Origin: Paludibacter sp. 221
GTDB lineage: Bacteria > Bacteroidota > Bacteroidia > Bacteroidales > Paludibacteraceae
Direction: 5' to 3'
Length of the DNA: 55,594 nucleotides
Assembly: GCF_010501035.1 (NCBI RefSeq)
Contig: NZ_QVMH01000006.1
Location: forward strand, 1-55,594
Below are positions 5,214 to 47,721 of the stretch, piece after piece; within the stretch, counting starts at the first letter, position 1, and every line of letters begins with the position of its first letter. The position numbers and the translations under genes are program-made. The notes under the pieces were generated by a model. It was not told where the DNA came from and made no database searches. It saw only the letters and a program-made list of their open reading frames with translations.

Positions 5214-8200
5214 AAATTAAGGAAGTGCAAATCTCGAACTTTAGAGCTTTTAATGACATTAAAAACTCTACATTCAAGTTCTTTAATGATAAGGATGAAA
5301 TATCAGATTTAATATCAATCTATGCTCCGAACGGATTCGGGAAAACATCTTTCTATGATGCCGTGGAATGGGGTGTTACAGGGAAGATTGAACGATTTGA
5401 CTTGATTGGTGATTTTGATAAAACTAGAAAGGAGAATAAAAAAGGAGGAAATAAGAATATTCTTCAACATATCGGGGCTACTGAAGATGGCTTTGTCAAT
5501 GTTATTACTGAAAAAGCTAACTTTGAAAGACAAATTCCAAAGACAGAATATGACCCCAAAAAAGAACCTAAAAACAAATTCTTCAGAGATGTTGTATTAT
5601 CCCAAGAAATGATTGACAATTTTCTGAAAGAACAAACAGCCGAGGACAGGTATAATAAATTTGTCGAATCTTATCCCGAAGTTACCAAATACAATAACAC
5701 ATATAAGAATATTGGGATTCTATTGAATTATATCCAGCAGGAGACCAAAAGAATAGAAAAAGAGAAAAATAGCAGGGAAAATAAACAGTTGAAAATTGAT
5801 TTTGATTTGGAGTTTAAGAAATTCGACCAAATCAATGAAGCCATTCAATTTCTCAAAATAAATAAAGAATCAATTGATTTAATAGAGAGAGAAACTTTTA
5901 ATGCAACTTTGTATGATATTTTGACTAGTCAAGTTAAATCAAGGTTAGTTTCATTGCAGATAGAATCAGATGCAAAGAAATTAAGAATCGAAAACATATC
6001 TATTGCTCGAAATGGAGAAGAAAACAACAGTGATAGCAATGGCGGTGTTATTACTTATATCGAGAATAGAAAGAAATTAGAAGATTTAGATTTAAAAATC
6101 AAAGAAGTGAAAAATATCATTTCTTTGATTGAAAATAAAGAGAAAACTCAAGCAGAAGAAAATAATTTAAAACAGAAATTATCTAAAGAACAAAGCACTC
6201 AAAGCATTTTTCTTTCTATTGAGAAGAAAATAGATGCCTACCTTCTTATTCATAAAGAAATAATCGAACAAGAAAAACGAATTGCAGACTTTAATGAAGC
6301 TATAATAATAATTGAAAAAGAAAACACTACGATTAAAGAAAGTATTAATAGCTCTCTAAATGTAATATCTCAACAGCAAGAAACACTAAAGCAGTATCAA
6401 AGTAAAACAAATGAACTTCCTCAACAAAAAAACAAATTAGAATTAACCCACAAGAATATAGAACTTTTGCAAAAATCGATTACAGAAATAATCGCTTCTA
6501 TAACAGAAAAGCAAGATATATCAAAAATATTACAGAAAAAACTAAATCAATTAAAATATTATGAAGATTGCATAAATAATAATATTGAGCTTCTATTGGA
6601 AATAGATGAGTTTCAAAACCAAAAATTGATAGTTGAAGAACAAGTTAAATCAGCAAATAGGATTAATATTCAAAAAGAAAATTTAGCAAAACTTGAAACT
6701 AAAATCGAATCTCAAAATCTGTTCAATAGCGAACTGAAAGAATATATTACTCGCGGATTAGAAATTATTTCAAAAAATAATTCCTCTGATTGTCCTCTGT
6801 GTAGTCAAAAATATGAATCTTTTGAAGAACTATCAAGTCGTATTGTTGGGAATAAAATTCTTGATGAACAGCTAAAAGATAGTTTAGAAAATAAACTCAA
6901 TATTGAAAACGAAATCGACAAGCTAAATAAGGAAATAAATCTAATAAAAGACAAACTAAGAAAGCACCTTAATGAACTAAGAGAACCTGTCGAAACAGAA
7001 TGTGCAAAAATTAAAAAAGATATTGAGGGATTATCTTTACAAAAAAATGAAAAGAACGAAGAATTAAAAAATGCCCAAGTAAATTATAATGAAGTTATTC
7101 TATTTTTCAACAATGAGTCTGATATTGAAGCGTTTGAAAAGAATATAAAAGAACAAATAGAAGCGTTAGTAATTCAGATAAATGAATTGAATAAAACTAT
7201 TGATTCAAACAATCTTAAATTAGACAAAAACAACTCTCAATTAAAAAGCAATTATACCAATATTGAAATTCTGAAAAATACCATAGATAAATTAAAAAAA
7301 TCCAATGATGTTTATTCAGAGGTCTTTCTATTTTTCAATCAAACATTTAATTTAAATGAAGTTGATAAAACATTTTTTGATTGTGAAAAACTAAAATTAG
7401 AACAAGTAATTATCAACTTAAAGCAAGATATCGACGAAAAGCAAAAATATTCCGATGAATTAGGGAGTAAACTGTCAAGCTATAGTCTCTCGAAAGAAGA
7501 ATATATTGAGAAACTAAGGGAACTGAACGATATAAAAATTATAATATTAAAAGCCTATGAAAGTTTTGAAAACTTTATTAGGACAGAATTTGGTATTGAA
7601 GTAAGAGGTCGAAGTAAAGACGAAATAAATATTGAATTCGACACATTGATTGATCGGGAAAAGAACAATCAAAAAAACATTGAAAATAAAATTGAACGAT
7701 ATACAATTGTTGAAACTCTGAAAGAAAATTGTTTAAAAGCAACCGTTTCACAGAAAATACAAATAGAAATCGATGAAATAAAAAGGGATCTGCAAAGATT
7801 AGAAGTAGCAAAAGGAAAGTTAGAAACGGAAAAGGATAATCTTGAACAGTATTTAGGGAAAACAATTGATGAGTTTTTTTATACTGACTTGATTAACTCC
7901 ATATACAAGAAAATAGATCCTCACCCTGATTATGAATCCATAGAATTTAAGTGTGAATTTGGAGATAGCAAGCCAAGATTGCAAATATTTACAATAAAAA
8001 GAGAGGATGATGGAAAAGAAACAAAGTCTGTTCCTGCATTATATTTCAGTACTGCCCAAATCAACATTTTAAGTCTAAGCATTTTTTTAGCAAGGGCATT
8101 AAAAACAAAAAATCCAGAAACAGGAGAATCCATTGATTGTATTTTTATAGATGACCCTATCCAATCGATGGATAGTATAAATATTTTGTCATTCATAGAT

Positions 8201-42783: not shown

Positions 42784-44151
42784 ATGGCAGATAACAACAG
42801 AGCTAATTTTGGAAGTAAATTAGGAGTAGTGGCAGCGGCAGCGGGTTCGGCAGTAGGATTGGGCAATATATGGCGTTTCCCTTACGAATTGGGGCAATCC
42901 GGAGGAGGTGCATTCCTGTTGATATACATTGTTTGCATCGTTTTACTGGGTCTGCCAATTATGACTTCCGAGTTCCTTATAGGGCGCATGTCGCAGTCCA
43001 ACGCTGTAGGTGCGTTTCGTAAATTAGGGCCTAAAGGCAGTAAATGGTGGCTTGTGGGGGTGATGGGTGTTTTGTCGGCATTTTTCATTATGGGGTTTTA
43101 TGTGGTGGTTTCGGGATGGACCTTGGAGTATATCGTACAAGCTGTAACCAATAGTTTTGCAAATAAGGATACCGAAACCTTAACCCGCGCTTTTACTGAT
43201 TTTAGTACAGGCACATGGCGTCCCATCATTTGGATGACCTTGTTTCTTGTAATTACCTGTGTCATTATTGTTGGCGGAGTTAAGAATGGGATTGAAAAAA
43301 GTGCTAAGTTTATGATGCCTTTGCTTCTTATTATAATTGTGGCACTTGGTGTCAGGGCTGTAACGCTGCCCGGAGGAGCCGAAGGTTTACGTTTTTTGTT
43401 CAAACCTGATTTCTCCAAAATAGACTCGTCTGTGGTACTGAACGCGATGGGACAGGCTTTTTTCTCTTTGAGCTTGGGAATGGGGTGTATGATAACTTAT
43501 GGCTCGTATATAAACAAGAAAAACCACCTTGCGCATACGGTATTGGAGGTAACTTTTGTTGATACGATTATTGCCGTTTTAGCATCCATAGCTATATTTC
43601 CCGCTGTTTTTTCATTTGGTATTAATCCCGAACAGGGGCCTACTTTGGTGTTTATTACGCTTCCTAATATATTTGCCCATATGCCCGGTGGCTTAATCTG
43701 GTCGCTTCTTTTCTTTATATTGCTCTCCATTGCTGCGTTAACCTCTACTATTTCGCTGTTGGAAGTTATTGTAGCGTTTTTTACCGAAGAGTTTAAAATG
43801 TCGCGTGCTAAAGCGGCAATTATAGCGTCGGCCGGTATTTGGGTTTTAGGAGTTTGTGCTTCGTTATCGATGGGTGTGTGGAGCGATGTACATATTTTTG
43901 GATTTACCATTTTCGACTTTTTGGATAATATTACATCCAAAATAATGATGCCTTTAGGCGGGTTGCTCATAGCCTTGTTTGCCGGATGGGTGATGAAGAA
44001 AGACCAAATGCTGGGTGAGTTAAGTAATAACGGAAAATATAAAACCGCCTATTTCAGAGCCTATTATTTTATTGTCCGGTTTGTTGCTCCGGTTGCTATC
44101 CTGATGATATTTTTGAATCAGTTGGGAGTTTTCAGATGGCTAAGGCTGTAG
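42784..44151 (+). CDS. Sodium-dependent neurotransmitter-symporter (NSS/SNF) family transporter
   Basis: A 455-residue LeuT-fold transporter. The first helix has GVVAAAAGSAVGLGNIWRFPYELGQSGGGAFLLIY, the hallmark NSS motif with the sodium site. About 11-12 hydrophobic helices follow, including SLGMGCMITYGSYINK (helix 6) and LTSTISLLEVIVAF (helix 8). It probably co-transports amino acids with sodium; the substrate is not predictable. Its 3' end overlaps the convergent radical SAM gene by 12 nt. Confidence 0.93.
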   Translation: MADNNRANFGSKLGVVAAAAGSAVGLGNIWRFPYELGQSGGGAFLLIYIVCIVLLGLPIMTSEFLIGRMSQSNAVGAFRKLGPKGSKWWLVGVMGVLSAFFIMGFYVVVSGWTLEYIVQAVTNSFANKDTETLTRAFTDFSTGTWRPIIWMTLFLVITCVIIVGGVKNGIEKSAKFMMPLLLIIIVALGVRAVTLPGGAEGLRFLFKPDFSKIDSSVVLNAMGQAFFSLSLGMGCMITYGSYINKKNHLAHTVLEVTFVDTIIAVLASIAIFPAVFSFGINPEQGPTLVFITLPNIFAHMPGGLIWSLLFFILLSIAALTSTISLLEVIVAFFTEEFKMSRAKAAIIASAGIWVLGVCASLSMGVWSDVHIFGFTIFDFLDNITSKIMMPLGGLLIALFAGWVMKKDQMLGELSNNGKYKTAYFRAYYFIVRFVAPVAILMIFLNQLGVFRWLRL

Positions 44152-45204
44152 TTTCTCCAAGTGGCAGCACAATAATTCTCCTGTTTTTTCGTCACGCAGG
44201 TGCAGTCCGTTTCCTTCGCAGTATTTATACGATTTGCATTGAGCGCATTTCCCTGTTTTTGTCCACGAGCGTTCGCGCATTATTTGATAGCGTTCGTTCC
44301 ATACAGTCCAGAAATCGTCAGTGTAAATGTTGCCTTGTATATAGTCGGCTCTTAGGCTGGGACAGGCACTTATAGAGCCGTCGATTAGTACCGAGCCGAT
44401 TTTAATGCCAGCCTGACAGAAGAACGGGTTATCCCGCACCTCTAATTCATAGTCTCCCAAAAATCCTTCGCAGCCAAATGATGCTTTTATCAGACCCTCT
44501 TTACGTGTTTGTTTGATAAAATCCATCATCTGCCGGAATTCGTTGTTGGATAGTTTTAAATCAGGGTTGTTCTCAGCACGCCCTTTAGGGAATACATGGA
44601 ACAGTCTCCACGCCTTTACATTTGCACCGATGAGTATTTTCTTTATCTGATCTAATTCGTCAATGTTTTTTTTGTTTACACAACTTACCACATCGTAAAC
44701 CAGATTTTCGGTGGAAGCTACCATTTTGATGGCCTCCAATGCGTGTTTCCACGAGCTTTTCTTTCCCCTGAACCAGTCATGGTTTTGCTCTAATCCATCA
44801 AAACTGACAGTTATAGAGCGTAGTCCGGCTTGTAAGAGTTTTTCGAAACATCCGGCGGTCAGAGAATAACCATTCGTCACGATACCCCAAGGAAACCCGC
44901 GCCTGTAAAACTCCATTCCACATTGTTCAAGGTCTTTCCTCATCAGAGGCTCACCTCCTGTTATAACTATTATTGTTTTGTTTGGGTTTATGTGAGGGGT
45001 AATGCTATCTAAAACTTTCAGGAAGTCGGGTAAAGGCATATCCGGAATGGCTGACTCTTTTGTGCAATCGCTACCACAGTGCACACAGTTGAGATTGCAC
45101 CGGAGTGTACATTCCCAAAACAGATAGTTTAATTCATGAATTTGCGCCTGGTTGCGCTTATGCTGCCGAAGAAGTGAAAATATTATTTTCTTTTTTAAAT
45201 CCAT
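44140..45204 (-). CDS. Radical SAM/SPASM protein of the rSAM/lipoprotein system
   Basis: A 354-residue radical SAM enzyme with the cluster motif CNLNCVHC, SAM-binding VITGGEPLMRKDL, and a C-terminal SPASM-type region (CAQCKSYKYCEGNG ... CC) for further Fe-S clusters. Start at ATG 45204, sharing one base with the stop of the lipoprotein gene (TGATG); a TTG three bases earlier is less likely. The pair matches the TIGR04133/TIGR04134 'rSAM/lipoprotein' system of Bacteroidales (recalled from family descriptions). A peptide-modifying role on the partner lipoprotein is inferred. The product is unknown. Confidence 0.88.
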   Translation of the reverse strand: MDLKKKIIFSLLRQHKRNQAQIHELNYLFWECTLRCNLNCVHCGSDCTKESAIPDMPLPDFLKVLDSITPHINPNKTIIVITGGEPLMRKDLEQCGMEFYRRGFPWGIVTNGYSLTAGCFEKLLQAGLRSITVSFDGLEQNHDWFRGKKSSWKHALEAIKMVASTENLVYDVVSCVNKKNIDELDQIKKILIGANVKAWRLFHVFPKGRAENNPDLKLSNNEFRQMMDFIKQTRKEGLIKASFGCEGFLGDYELEVRDNPFFCQAGIKIGSVLIDGSISACPSLRADYIQGNIYTDDFWTVWNERYQIMRERSWTKTGKCAQCKSYKYCEGNGLHLRDEKTGELLCCHLEKLQP

Positions 45205-45650
45205 CAATTATTTTCTTCATCTGTTTTTTGCTCCAGTTCGATGTGTTGCTCTTTCTGATACTTGCCCTCGTACCAACCAGAGCCTTTTTCTACTTTATCT
45301 TCTTGTGTAAAGGTACATTCTATCTCTTTTTCCAGATAGTACCCGTCATTGTCTTCGCCGTCAATATCTTCAAACTTTACATACAAAGTCCGTCCTTCCT
45401 CTTTATGATTTAACTCATATTTTCCGCTTTTGTTGGTATAGACAGTATCTCGGTGGCTAACGACACGGATATTTTGTATAGGTTTCTTAGTGTCTTTGTT
45501 TACAACAGTGCCTTTTAGTTTAAAATCGGCGTAAGGCGTTCCATATTCGGCTCCCCCTATTGAAATTATATCACAACCCCAGAAAAATCCGGTTATACTA
45601 AGGATAAGAAGGACTATTTTGTCAAAAGTCTTAATCAGTATTTTTTTCAT
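45204..45650 (-). CDS. Radical SAM-associated putative lipoprotein
   Basis: About 148 residues from MKKILIKTFDKIV (45650); a longer frame begins upstream but lacks a better signal. Signal peptide with lipobox GFFWGC, then the family-like EYGTPYADFKLKGTVV. A carboxypeptidase-regulatory-like Ig domain follows (NKDTKKPIQNIRVVS, TNKSGKYELNH), then DIDGEDNDGYYLEKEIECTF and an acidic tail. The fixed pairing and translational coupling with the radical SAM gene suggest it is the substrate or partner. Modified residues are unknown; the Asp/Gly/Tyr-rich stretch or the single distal Cys are candidates. Confidence 0.82.
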   Translation of the reverse strand: MKKILIKTFDKIVLLILSITGFFWGCDIISIGGAEYGTPYADFKLKGTVVNKDTKKPIQNIRVVSHRDTVYTNKSGKYELNHKEEGRTLYVKFEDIDGEDNDGYYLEKEIECTFTQEDKVEKGSGWYEGKYQKEQHIELEQKTDEENN

Positions 45651-45821: not shown

Positions 45822-46670
45822 ATGAGGAAAATCTTCTTTTGCTTTTTTTTATTCTCGATATGTTGCTTTAGGGCAATTGCACAATCAGATTCTATAGCTG
45901 TAAAAAAGTACTCGCTTACTTCGTCTACAACCTCGTTTGCCTTGTCGGTGGTCGACCTGTTCGACCATTATTTATCGCCATTACCTTATAGCGGTATTGG
46001 CTTTAGGGTGAGTAATGAAAAGAATCATCTGTTCGACCCCGCAAAAGTTTTTCTTTCAGATGTAAGGCGTTTTACTATGGGATTGGGGATGACTGTGAAC
46101 CCTACCGCTACCTCTTCTATTATGAATTATGATTTCAATTATGGTTGGGGGGTGCATTATCATTTTCGGCCTATAGAACATCTTCAACTGCTGGCAGGGG
46201 GAATAGCCGATGTTGATTTTGGGTTTAAAATGAATGCGCGCAACGTGAACAACCCTGTGAATATTGATTTTGCAATGGGAGTCTACCTTTCGGTAAGGGC
46301 TATATACGATATCCCTACTTATAAACGGACTTACCGCTTGCAGGCTGAGTTGGAGACGCCTTTCTTAGGTTTTATGTTTGTGCCTCAGTTGGGGACTTCG
46401 TATTATGAGATGTTGATGTTAGACGGTGGCGGGGATAGTTTTCATTTTAGTTCTTTGCATAACAAACGGGGGCTTCGGCAGCGTTATTTTATAGAAGTAC
46501 CTTTCCGTAGGTCTACACGGCGTTTTGGGGTTGCGGTTAACTTGTTGAAATATACCGCTAATGACATTTATTTCAGCAAGAATGAATTTACGTTATTCTA
46601 TGCTTTAACCACTGATTTATTCAAGTTTACAAAGAAAAAACCTGCTCCTGAAAATTTTATAAAGTACTGA
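45822..46670 (+). CDS. DUF3316-like outer-membrane protein
   Basis: A 282-residue exported protein with signal peptide MRKIFFCFFLFSICCFRAIA. Beta-strand-rich sequence (GLGMTVNPTATSSIMNYDFNYGWGVHYHF, VYLSVRAIYD, RRFGVAVNLLKYTANDIYFSKNEF) resembles the DUF3316 family of Bacteroidetes outer-membrane barrels. Function is unknown. It is followed 28 nt later by an S41 peptidase lipoprotein gene, probably in one operon. Confidence 0.7.
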   Translation: MRKIFFCFFLFSICCFRAIAQSDSIAVKKYSLTSSTTSFALSVVDLFDHYLSPLPYSGIGFRVSNEKNHLFDPAKVFLSDVRRFTMGLGMTVNPTATSSIMNYDFNYGWGVHYHFRPIEHLQLLAGGIADVDFGFKMNARNVNNPVNIDFAMGVYLSVRAIYDIPTYKRTYRLQAELETPFLGFMFVPQLGTSYYEMLMLDGGGDSFHFSSLHNKRGLRQRYFIEVPFRRSTRRFGVAVNLLKYTANDIYFSKNEFTLFYALTTDLFKFTKKKPAPENFIKY

Positions 46671-46698
46671 AAAATAAGAATATCAAGAATAAATTGTT

Positions 46699-47721
46699 AT
46701 GAAAAAATATATATGTTTTGCAGCAATGTGCTCCGTCTTGTTTGTCGCTTGTATAGATGAACCAAAACAATATGAGAATACTAAGGAGGGTAATTTCCGG
46801 GCATTGTGGGAAATAATTGATACGCGCTATTGCTATCTCGATTATAAGGGTATTAACTGGGATTCTGTTTACAACGATTATAATGAGAGGCTACAATACG
46901 TGCAGGATAATAAATACGAACTGTTCGATTTGTTTGCCGAAATGCTGACCGAGCTGAAAGATGGGCATGTAAACCTCTACTCAAGCTTTGATATAAGCCG
47001 GTACGACAAGTGGTACACCGATTCGGCCACTAACTATTACTCTTCTATTGTATATTCTGACGATTATGTAGGTAAGAAAGTCCGTATTGCCGGAGGGCTG
47101 AGATATGGCCGTTTTTTAAATTACAATATAGGATATGTGTATTACGGCAGCTTTTCGGATGGTTTCAGTGAAACGAATATCCGCGAGGTGTTTGAATATT
47201 TTAAGGATTGCGATGGCTTAATCCTTGATGTGAGGAATAATGGTGGTGGGGCTTTGACTTATTCAGAGCAATTGGCATCCTATTTCTTCACAGAGAATAA
47301 AGTGACGGGCTATATACGGCACAAAAGCGGTAACGGGCATAGCGATTTTTCGAAACCTGTGAAACTTGAAACTATAGCAGCCGATGATTCGTACCGCTGG
47401 ACAAAGCCCGTAGTGGTGCTTACCAACCGTTACTCGTATAGTGCTACAAACGATTTTGTAAGCAGGATGAAGCAAGCCCCAAATGCCTATGTAGTAGGCG
47501 GCTGGACTGGTGGCGGTGGGGGGATGCCTCTTTCGAGCGAGCTACCGAATGGCTGGATGGTGCGGTTTTCGGCTTGCCCGATGTACGATGTTGATATGAA
47601 TGATACGGAATGGGGCATTGCACCGGATTATTGGGTGATGATTACAAACGATGATAAAGAAAACAACCGCGATGCTATTATTGATAAAGCGATTCAGGTT
47701 ATTTCAGCTACTAATGACTAG
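46699..47721 (+). CDS. S41-family peptidase lipoprotein
   Basis: A 340-residue lipoprotein (LFVACIDE lipobox, Cys about 18) with a tail-specific-protease domain: FAEMLTELKDGHVNLYS, CDGLILDVRNNGGGALTYS, VVLTNRYSYSATNDFV (likely nucleophile Ser in YSYSA), GGWTGGGGGMP and GIAPDYWV. The PDZ-like region is shortened compared with CtpA. It should act in the periplasm or at the cell surface. The substrate is unknown. It lies directly downstream of the DUF3316 gene. Confidence 0.88.
   Translation: MKKYICFAAMCSVLFVACIDEPKQYENTKEGNFRALWEIIDTRYCYLDYKGINWDSVYNDYNERLQYVQDNKYELFDLFAEMLTELKDGHVNLYSSFDISRYDKWYTDSATNYYSSIVYSDDYVGKKVRIAGGLRYGRFLNYNIGYVYYGSFSDGFSETNIREVFEYFKDCDGLILDVRNNGGGALTYSEQLASYFFTENKVTGYIRHKSGNGHSDFSKPVKLETIAADDSYRWTKPVVVLTNRYSYSATNDFVSRMKQAPNAYVVGGWTGGGGGMPLSSELPNGWMVRFSACPMYDVDMNDTEWGIAPDYWVMITNDDKENNRDAIIDKAIQVISATND

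Follow-up and report, generated by a model that had tools for sequence, protein, structure and literature searches.

What a radical S-adenosylmethionine (SAM) enzyme does to the lipoprotein encoded beside it, and at which residues, is the question raised by a gene pair in a 55,594-nt stretch of DNA from Paludibacter sp. 221 (contig NZ_QVMH01000006.1), referred to here in its whole length as the window. A sequence-only reading of this DNA had described a SPASM radical SAM gene and a small lipoprotein gene joined at their ends; both were found where it had placed them, on the minus strand, with the TGA of the lipoprotein gene overlapping the ATG of the enzyme gene as TGATG. Its statement that the pair is known to family models also held, the enzyme matching NCBIfam TIGR04133 with 566.6 bits over positions 1–350 of 350 (cut-off 425) and the lipoprotein matching TIGR04134 with 97.8 bits (cut-off 39.8), each as the single match over the cut-off in this genome. 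The two families are annotated yet unexplained, and the enzyme is present in 52 of the 247 genomes sampled from the order Bacteroidales. Our analysis very strongly suggests that a short X-Tyr-Gly tag in the lipoprotein is the site of modification, and favours, with clearly less assurance, an enzyme that acts like a splicease and leaves an α-keto-β-amino acid in the lipoprotein backbone at that tag.

An X-Tyr-Gly tag in the proteins encoded next to the enzyme

The window lipoprotein starts with MKKILIK and carries a WGC lipobox-like motif with Cys26, identified by eye and with a regular expression, which is followed by DIISIGGAEYGTPYADFKLKG. The segments EYGTPYADFKLKG and DGEDNDGYYLEKE that had been picked out earlier are present as described, and the suspicion that the conserved-looking EYGTPYA was a special segment was borne out by the partners of other TIGR04133 enzymes. 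These partners were chosen with a profile of the folded domain alone, with the linker excluded, which gave 122 partners from 98 loci out of 114 non-redundant enzyme loci. In the 40 residues preceding the domain match, X-Tyr-Gly was present in 115/122 partners and X-Tyr-Gly-x-Pro in 104/122. As a control, the same profile was applied to 57 loci without the enzyme; among the 22 domains recovered, a small set of which six lie in short proteins, one had YG and none had YGxP. Masking the chance TYGK inside some signal peptides left the counts unchanged. Seven partners had no YG: L105, L016|6 and L106|9 start after the motif, the match of L095|16 is weak, and L039|2, L177 and L181 are true exceptions.

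The tag was also counted by position only, scoring YGxP in genes of 60–340 aa around the enzyme without the domain profile. On the same strand and at most 250 nt upstream of the enzyme, 77/92 genes (87 loci) carried YGxP, and on the opposite strand it was found in a single gene out of 173 (79 loci). Same-strand frequencies were 26/87 at 250–1700 nt upstream and 3/76 beyond 1700 nt, and downstream of the enzyme they were 4/39 within 250 nt and 1/45 at 250–1700 nt. This count omits the 10 loci in which the enzyme gene was uncalled (L005, L036, L037, L039, L040, L041, L042, L044, L095 and L121), and the upstream genes without YGxP include partners with YG and no Pro (L108, L150), partners truncated by the contig or at their own start (L105, L171) and unrelated genes.

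Within the tag, Tyr and Gly are fixed and X varies: among the 115 tagged partners it was E in 51, C in 24, M in 19 and one of seven other residues in the rest, with K, V, A, L and Q also represented. An alignment of partners for invariant residues, proposed as a check by the sequence-only reading, showed Y36 to be invariant and G37 and P39 to be conserved in at least 90 % of 50 aligned rows. The information content was 2.55 bits per column in the tag vs 0.74 bits in the surrounding linker, figures obtained from 87 rows chosen by lipobox, the linker value coming from three columns. In 19/122 domain partners a tag lies in the C-terminal tail, excluding a chance YG in the second domain of L079.

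We also considered orphan lipoproteins, encoded away from the enzyme, in a set of 40 stretches (four without a domain match) that mixes short lipoproteins with longer proteins. Counted by hand, YG was present in 8/12 of those with a lipobox in enzyme-bearing genomes vs 2/8 in other genomes, the latter two being a chance GYG and a CYGSP in G520. In one orphan from an enzyme-bearing genome (L232, G423:C146), the segment reads ENKMPHADY, compared with EYGMPHADF in L004, as if the tag had gone and its flank been retained.

Partners of unrelated scaffold

Beside TIGR04133 enzymes there are also partners of unrelated scaffold, not members of the TIGR04134 domain family, in which the tag is the only common feature and is often repeated. 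They include small lipoproteins of 62–85 aa in which the tag occurs one to three times (L003, L010, L015, L024, L111 and L145), partners with VYGSPE-like repeats that look helical by eye (L097, L100, L102, L109 and L113), and proteins with Lys/Asp/Ser-rich spacers that carry the tag close to their C-terminus (L098, L106, L110, L146 and L149). The 433 small reading frames from the 114 loci were also clustered without regard to the tag. Of the clusters that do not resemble TIGR04134, the two largest were tagged throughout (8/8 members from six loci and 5/5 from five loci); the recurrent clusters without the tag came from close relatives and resembled non-coding frames. The list of 37 YG genes outside the domain family includes chance matches (e.g. 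L022, L023, L025, L158 and L170) as well as domain partners under other locus names (L125, L139).

The tag keeps its identity in different settings with respect to the lipid anchor. In L154, L155, L157–L170, L173–L176, L179 and L180 the lipobox Cys is itself X, giving CYGTP-like tags, and in L110, L112, L151, L224 and L236 the lipobox is lost and the tag kept, as QYG after what by eye is a presumed signal peptidase I site. The DGEDNDGYYLEKE stretch lies in a conserved D-x-D-G..N-G loop of the β-sandwich and is probably not the modified site, since unrelated partners are without that loop. The DGEDNDGYY stretch was rejected as a target, being part of the domain loop, which other scaffolds do not have.

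Co-occurrence of enzyme and lipoprotein in genomes

Co-occurrence in genomes, the other check proposed earlier, was evident among the 247 genomes of the order: TIGR04133 was over its cut-off in 52, TIGR04134 in 33, and both in 32 (Fisher p 2e-25). The pairing is therefore not due to chance, with 32/33 TIGR04134 genomes also having TIGR04133 vs 52/247 overall; G520 is the only order genome with TIGR04134 and without TIGR04133 over the cut-off. In 18/20 of the enzyme-only genomes, a hand count identified a secreted protein with the tag next to the enzyme, one to which TIGR04134 gives too low a score or no match at all.

Among 296 sampled phylum genomes, two exceeded the TIGR04133 cut-off and two the TIGR04134 cut-off, and the window's own genome alone exceeded both. 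In G124, which does not have the enzyme, a protein without the tag matches TIGR04134 with 42.9 bits, and G160 has the enzyme and a partner with EYG and no lipobox (L085). Weak TIGR04134 matches were not accepted as genuine partners; long proteins contain many of them, and 46/296 phylum genomes had a match, 2/296 over the cut-off. Relatives of 50–55 % identity were found on plasmid-labelled records of Parabacteroides, Phocaeicola and Treponema. The pair of the Treponema saccharophilum plasmid (L078, 4622–6098) stands outside Bacteroidota, which suggests horizontal transfer; its neighbour is an Mpi-family invertase, and its tag includes the lipobox Cys (SCYGMP).

Kinship of the enzyme

In a midpoint-rooted tree of 44 enzyme rows, in which AcgM, MftC and PqqE form long branches, TIGR04133 shared a group of 38 rows with the GDL maturases, enzymes of Agathobacter and G238, and a PlpX-like enzyme encoded on a Nostoc plasmid. 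This group was split from the MftC, PqqE and TIGR04053 rows with support 97/98. In a neighbouring 13-row clade (support 89/91), which includes the PlpX-like enzyme and the GDL maturases, several precursors carry XYG: a nif11 precursor ends in ALYGLPPELF (L077), two of three DUF1843 peptides of L083 have LYG and PYG, the third reading MYM, one of three peptides of L082 has PYG, the other two reading LYA and MYA, and adjacent peptides of L201 have PYG and LYG.

Two further loci of that clade also have an XYG protein near the enzyme. On an Agathobacter rectalis plasmid (L081), an unannotated 35-residue open reading frame ending in FGPVMYGTGVRM, with PVMYGTG, lies about 189 nt upstream of the enzyme at 6037, and is a possible XYG precursor for this TIGR04103-like enzyme. 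At L184 (G238:C3:219900-226900), the gene that lies 35 nt downstream of a TIGR04133-like enzyme encodes 214 residues and closes with six KYGYP repeats, five of them KYGYPC and the terminal one KYGYPGC; its product is apparently a multi-core precursor of a ribosomally synthesized and post-translationally modified peptide (RiPP) with the same XYGxP tag.

Features of the two proteins

The enzyme matched Pfam Radical_SAM with 67.2 bits (cut-off 29.5) and SPASM with 30.6 bits (cut-off 21.5). In enzyme alignments of 19 rows, C36 and C40 of the radical SAM cluster motif are invariant and C43 nearly so. In L029 (4630–6059) the enzyme lacks C43 and the lipoprotein is shortened and lacks the lipobox Cys, so that the two seem to be decaying together. 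The AlphaFold2 (AF2) model of the window enzyme, with a mean predicted local distance difference test (pLDDT) score of 86.9, has the radical SAM barrel and a SPASM domain. Its best Z-scores were for the sactipeptide thioether maturase 5why (25.6, 3.4 Å over 314), with ChlB, SuiB and anSME within 1 of it. A splicease structure was found neither by sequence nor by fold search, a result that carries no evidential weight.

In the AF2 model of the lipoprotein (mean pLDDT 88.0), a helix formed by the signal peptide leads into a linker of low confidence, within which Y36-G37 lie; from residue 40 onwards the model is a β-sandwich, with pLDDT at least 90 in each block of ten across residues 41–140. Pfam CarbopepD_reg_2 matched with 27.3 bits, under its cut-off of 32.2, and the transthyretin-like domain of carboxypeptidase D (5aq0) was among the best Foldseek matches (E 6e-4).

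The signal peptide is a candidate leader for the enzyme. Its columns are on average as conserved as those of the domain (1.66 vs 1.52 bits), the conservation of Cys26 being partly by construction because nearly all aligned rows were chosen by lipobox. The signal peptides of unrelated partners within one locus aligned with scores of 30–93 vs a mean of 16 and a maximum of 34 for ordinary lipoprotein signals, a comparison of five hand-picked pairs with 10 hand-picked background signals in which one pair falls inside the background range. Duplication could explain this likeness within loci.

Genomic surroundings of the pair

The features of the pair are listed in Table 1. The enzyme gene is convergent with a sodium symporter gene (42784–44151), and the 3′ ends of the two overlap by 12 bases. 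Upstream of the pair, on the other strand, a DUF3316 gene and an S41 peptidase gene with a Tricorn C1 domain occupy 45822–47721. The S41 peptidase, DUF3316 and the SNF transporter were rejected as members of a unit with the pair, as no such family recurs near other copies. Besides the pair, families of at least 100 aa that were present in at least four of 45 loci were antisense frames or confined to close relatives, with the exception of a 124-residue membrane protein in L027–L029, L040 and L044.

Table 1. Positions in the window of the gene pair and of its sequence features
Feature	Position	Strand	Size or basis
TIGR04133 radical SAM/SPASM enzyme, predicted to act on the lipoprotein X-Tyr-Gly tag	44140..45204	minus	354 aa
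TIGR04134 lipoprotein, predicted substrate	45204..45650	minus	148 aa
TGATG stop/start overlap of the lipoprotein and radical SAM genes	45202..45206	minus	sequence
Radical SAM cluster motif C36-x3-C40-x2-C43 (CNLNCVHC)	45076..45099	minus	sequence
SPASM domain, C320-x2-C323-x5-C329, G333 at the fourth Cys position	44233..44418	minus	Pfam and alignments
Lipoprotein signal peptide (residues 1–25) and lipobox Cys26; possible enzyme leader	45573..45650	minus	lipobox by motif only
X-Tyr-Gly-x-Pro tag E35-Y36-G37-T38-P39, predicted modification site	45534..45548	minus	partner counts, alignment
Carboxypeptidase-regulatory-like/transthyretin-like β-sandwich, residues 40–139	45234..45533	minus	Pfam (sub-cut-off), AF2, Foldseek

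Possible reactions at the tag

XYG is the motif at which the PlpXY spliceases excise tyramine, with X variable (PMC10533398). A published splice tag, GPIRPLYGLPI, likewise fits YGxP. In PMC10373908, which refers to Scott et al. 2022, such splicing is described as widespread across bacteria and its products as potent protease inhibitors. A tag common to the partners, the variation at X, the occurrence of repeats, the presence of the tag on unrelated scaffolds and the kinship of the enzyme, all computed here, make the same reaction on lipoproteins the best reading of the pair. Since only Tyr-Gly, mostly with Pro, is shared by the partners and X varies, the reaction is likely to be confined to the X-Tyr-Gly backbone.

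Several results weigh against this reading. The enzyme scored 118.5 bits against TIGR04103 (cut-off 725), the family of which we take PlpX to be a member, and so stands outside it; its scores against TIGR04053 (127) and TIGR04545 (122.8) were slightly higher. The full SPASM set CX2CX5CX3C is absent, the fourth Cys being G333 in the window enzyme, and alignments of TIGR04133 enzymes revealed an additional invariant Cys245, so that the auxiliary clusters may differ; C245, together with the invariant C347, may substitute for the absent SPASM Cys. The nearest solved folds to the enzyme model are those of crosslinking maturases and a sulfatase maturase. The window contains no PlpY-like gene, and a search with the PlpY-like protein encoded at L077 (71 residues) gave no match at E≤1 among the 433 small frames at most 1500 nt from the enzyme in the 114 loci, a search that did not extend to the rest of the genome.

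On the side of the partners, some tags vary (CYASQ in L177, MYATPYG in L030 and L031, CYAPAPY in L181), no tagged partner was found beside the enzyme in G426 (L107) and G468 (L156), and 4/12 lipobox orphans in enzyme-bearing genomes are without YG; a broader orphan count, 10/19 vs 5/20 in genomes without the enzyme, was not significant (p=0.11). Among related enzymes, no convincing XYG partner was found in L182 and L183, sister rows of TIGR04133, or in L185, L186 and L197–L200 of the neighbouring clade, where the other GDL peptides read LYA, MYA or MYM. Another published splice tag, GAVAAGYGVVFPG, has no Pro at the corresponding position. Given the absence of a PlpY-like partner near the enzyme, the missing SPASM Cys, the low TIGR04103 score and the mixed orphans, we do not class the pair as PlpX-type, and claim instead that it works like one.

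The tag evidence fixes the site and not the chemistry, and a different reaction at the same tag, limited to Tyr or X, has to be weighed, such as epimerization, loss or oxidation of the Tyr side chain, or a Cα change without splicing. The epimerase EpeE is among the structural neighbours of the enzyme (Z 17.6–17.8), and TIGR04133 differs from the PlpX type in its SPASM cysteines and in having no PlpY-like partner nearby. We nevertheless regard such a reaction as rather unlikely, given that in the papers covered (PMC10533398, PMC11002830) tyramine excision is the only chemistry described at XYG in this neighbourhood of the tree.

The sequence-only reading had proposed a post-translational crosslink, which would join Tyr or X to another side chain of the lipoprotein. 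Many SPASM maturases form crosslinks, and 5why and SuiB, which presumably form thioether and Lys-Trp crosslinks, respectively, are among the nearest folds; Pro and often Ala follow the tag. Against this, Tyr-Gly and, mostly, a Pro at the second position after Gly are the only residues seen in common across unrelated partners; their scaffolds offer no evident second reactive residue, and tags sit on the lipobox Cys, near C-termini, or almost alone in small lipoproteins. A crosslink thus appears improbable, and one between Tyr and a domain residue was rejected as the main reading since unrelated partners keep only XYG. It is more improbable still that the tag serves docking or structure while the true target is found elsewhere, in a domain loop, the lipid anchor or another protein: the domain residues Gly76, Asp95, Trp126 and Gly129 are also conserved, but unrelated partners keep XYG without that domain and tags are repeated within single proteins.

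Proposed pathway and its significance

On the splicing reading, the enzyme would bind the unfolded pre-lipoprotein in the cytoplasm, perhaps via the conserved signal peptide, and would act on X-Tyr-Gly (Glu35-Tyr36-Gly37 in the window protein). This tag is located in the stretch that joins the lipid anchor to the folded domain; other partners have it at the end of a tail. As in PlpX-type splicing, tyramine would be excised (−135.0757 Da) and a ketoamide formed. The modified protein would then be exported and lipidated, presenting an electrophilic ketoamide near the membrane that could trap a protease or another nucleophile. As a wider picture, which we put forward tentatively and with some doubt, Bacteroidales may possess membrane-anchored proteins with a programmed backbone ketoamide by the lipid anchor, in CYG partners on the lipidated Cys itself, with the signal peptide serving as RiPP leader and no RiPP recognition element, the scaffolds setting the distance between electrophile and membrane, for example for protease trapping.

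A concrete site and a mass shift make the function of the pair testable. If the proposal is true, lipoproteins would be a class of splicing substrate that we have not seen described, reactive ketoamides would be located at the bacterial envelope, a signal peptide may also serve as a RiPP leader, and XYGxP would offer a genetically encoded means, only a few residues long, of introducing a ketone into exported proteins. We found no report of a site or reaction for TIGR04133/TIGR04134, nor of a splicease or spliceotide together with a lipoprotein, in the open-licence PMC literature; Scott et al. 2022 (Chem) falls outside that scope and may include such lipoproteins. The priority of the lipoprotein splicing proposal is therefore uncertain. 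The pair itself is already in NCBIfam, and what is new here is its probable modification site.

Comparison with known systems

PqqE, MftC and the sacti/ranthipeptide maturases share the SPASM radical SAM fold with the window enzyme; PqqE and MftC, both long branches, lie across the supported split of the tree (97/98). The substrates of these enzymes require Glu-Tyr, a C-terminal Val-Tyr or Cys. The TIGR03913 GDL-motif (DUF1843) maturases belong to a neighbouring clade and are similar in that some precursors of L082, L083 and L201 have LYG or PYG near the N-terminus; unlike the lipoproteins, these precursors are short, arranged in tandem and without signal peptides, and others of them read YA or YM.

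The pair also resembles PlpX/PlpXY of the Pleurocapsa plp cluster (TIGR04103-like), where a SPASM radical SAM enzyme of the same broad clade adjoins small X-Tyr-Gly proteins, sometimes with several tags. The window partner has the X-Tyr-Gly of a PlpX-type substrate (E35-Y36-G37). In contrast, the predicted substrates here are lipoproteins that start with a signal peptide, where spliceotide precursors have a nif11 or nitrile-hydratase leader; the window partner carries a lipoprotein-type signal peptide, with no nif11 or nitrile-hydratase match in Pfam or NCBIfam. By curated score and gene order the pair fits NCBIfam TIGR04133 (rSAM_w_lipo) and TIGR04134 (lipo_with_rSAM); these are 'hypoth_equivalog' models whose names give neither site nor reaction, whereas the present analysis proposes a site in the X-Tyr-Gly tag and adds partners of other scaffolds.

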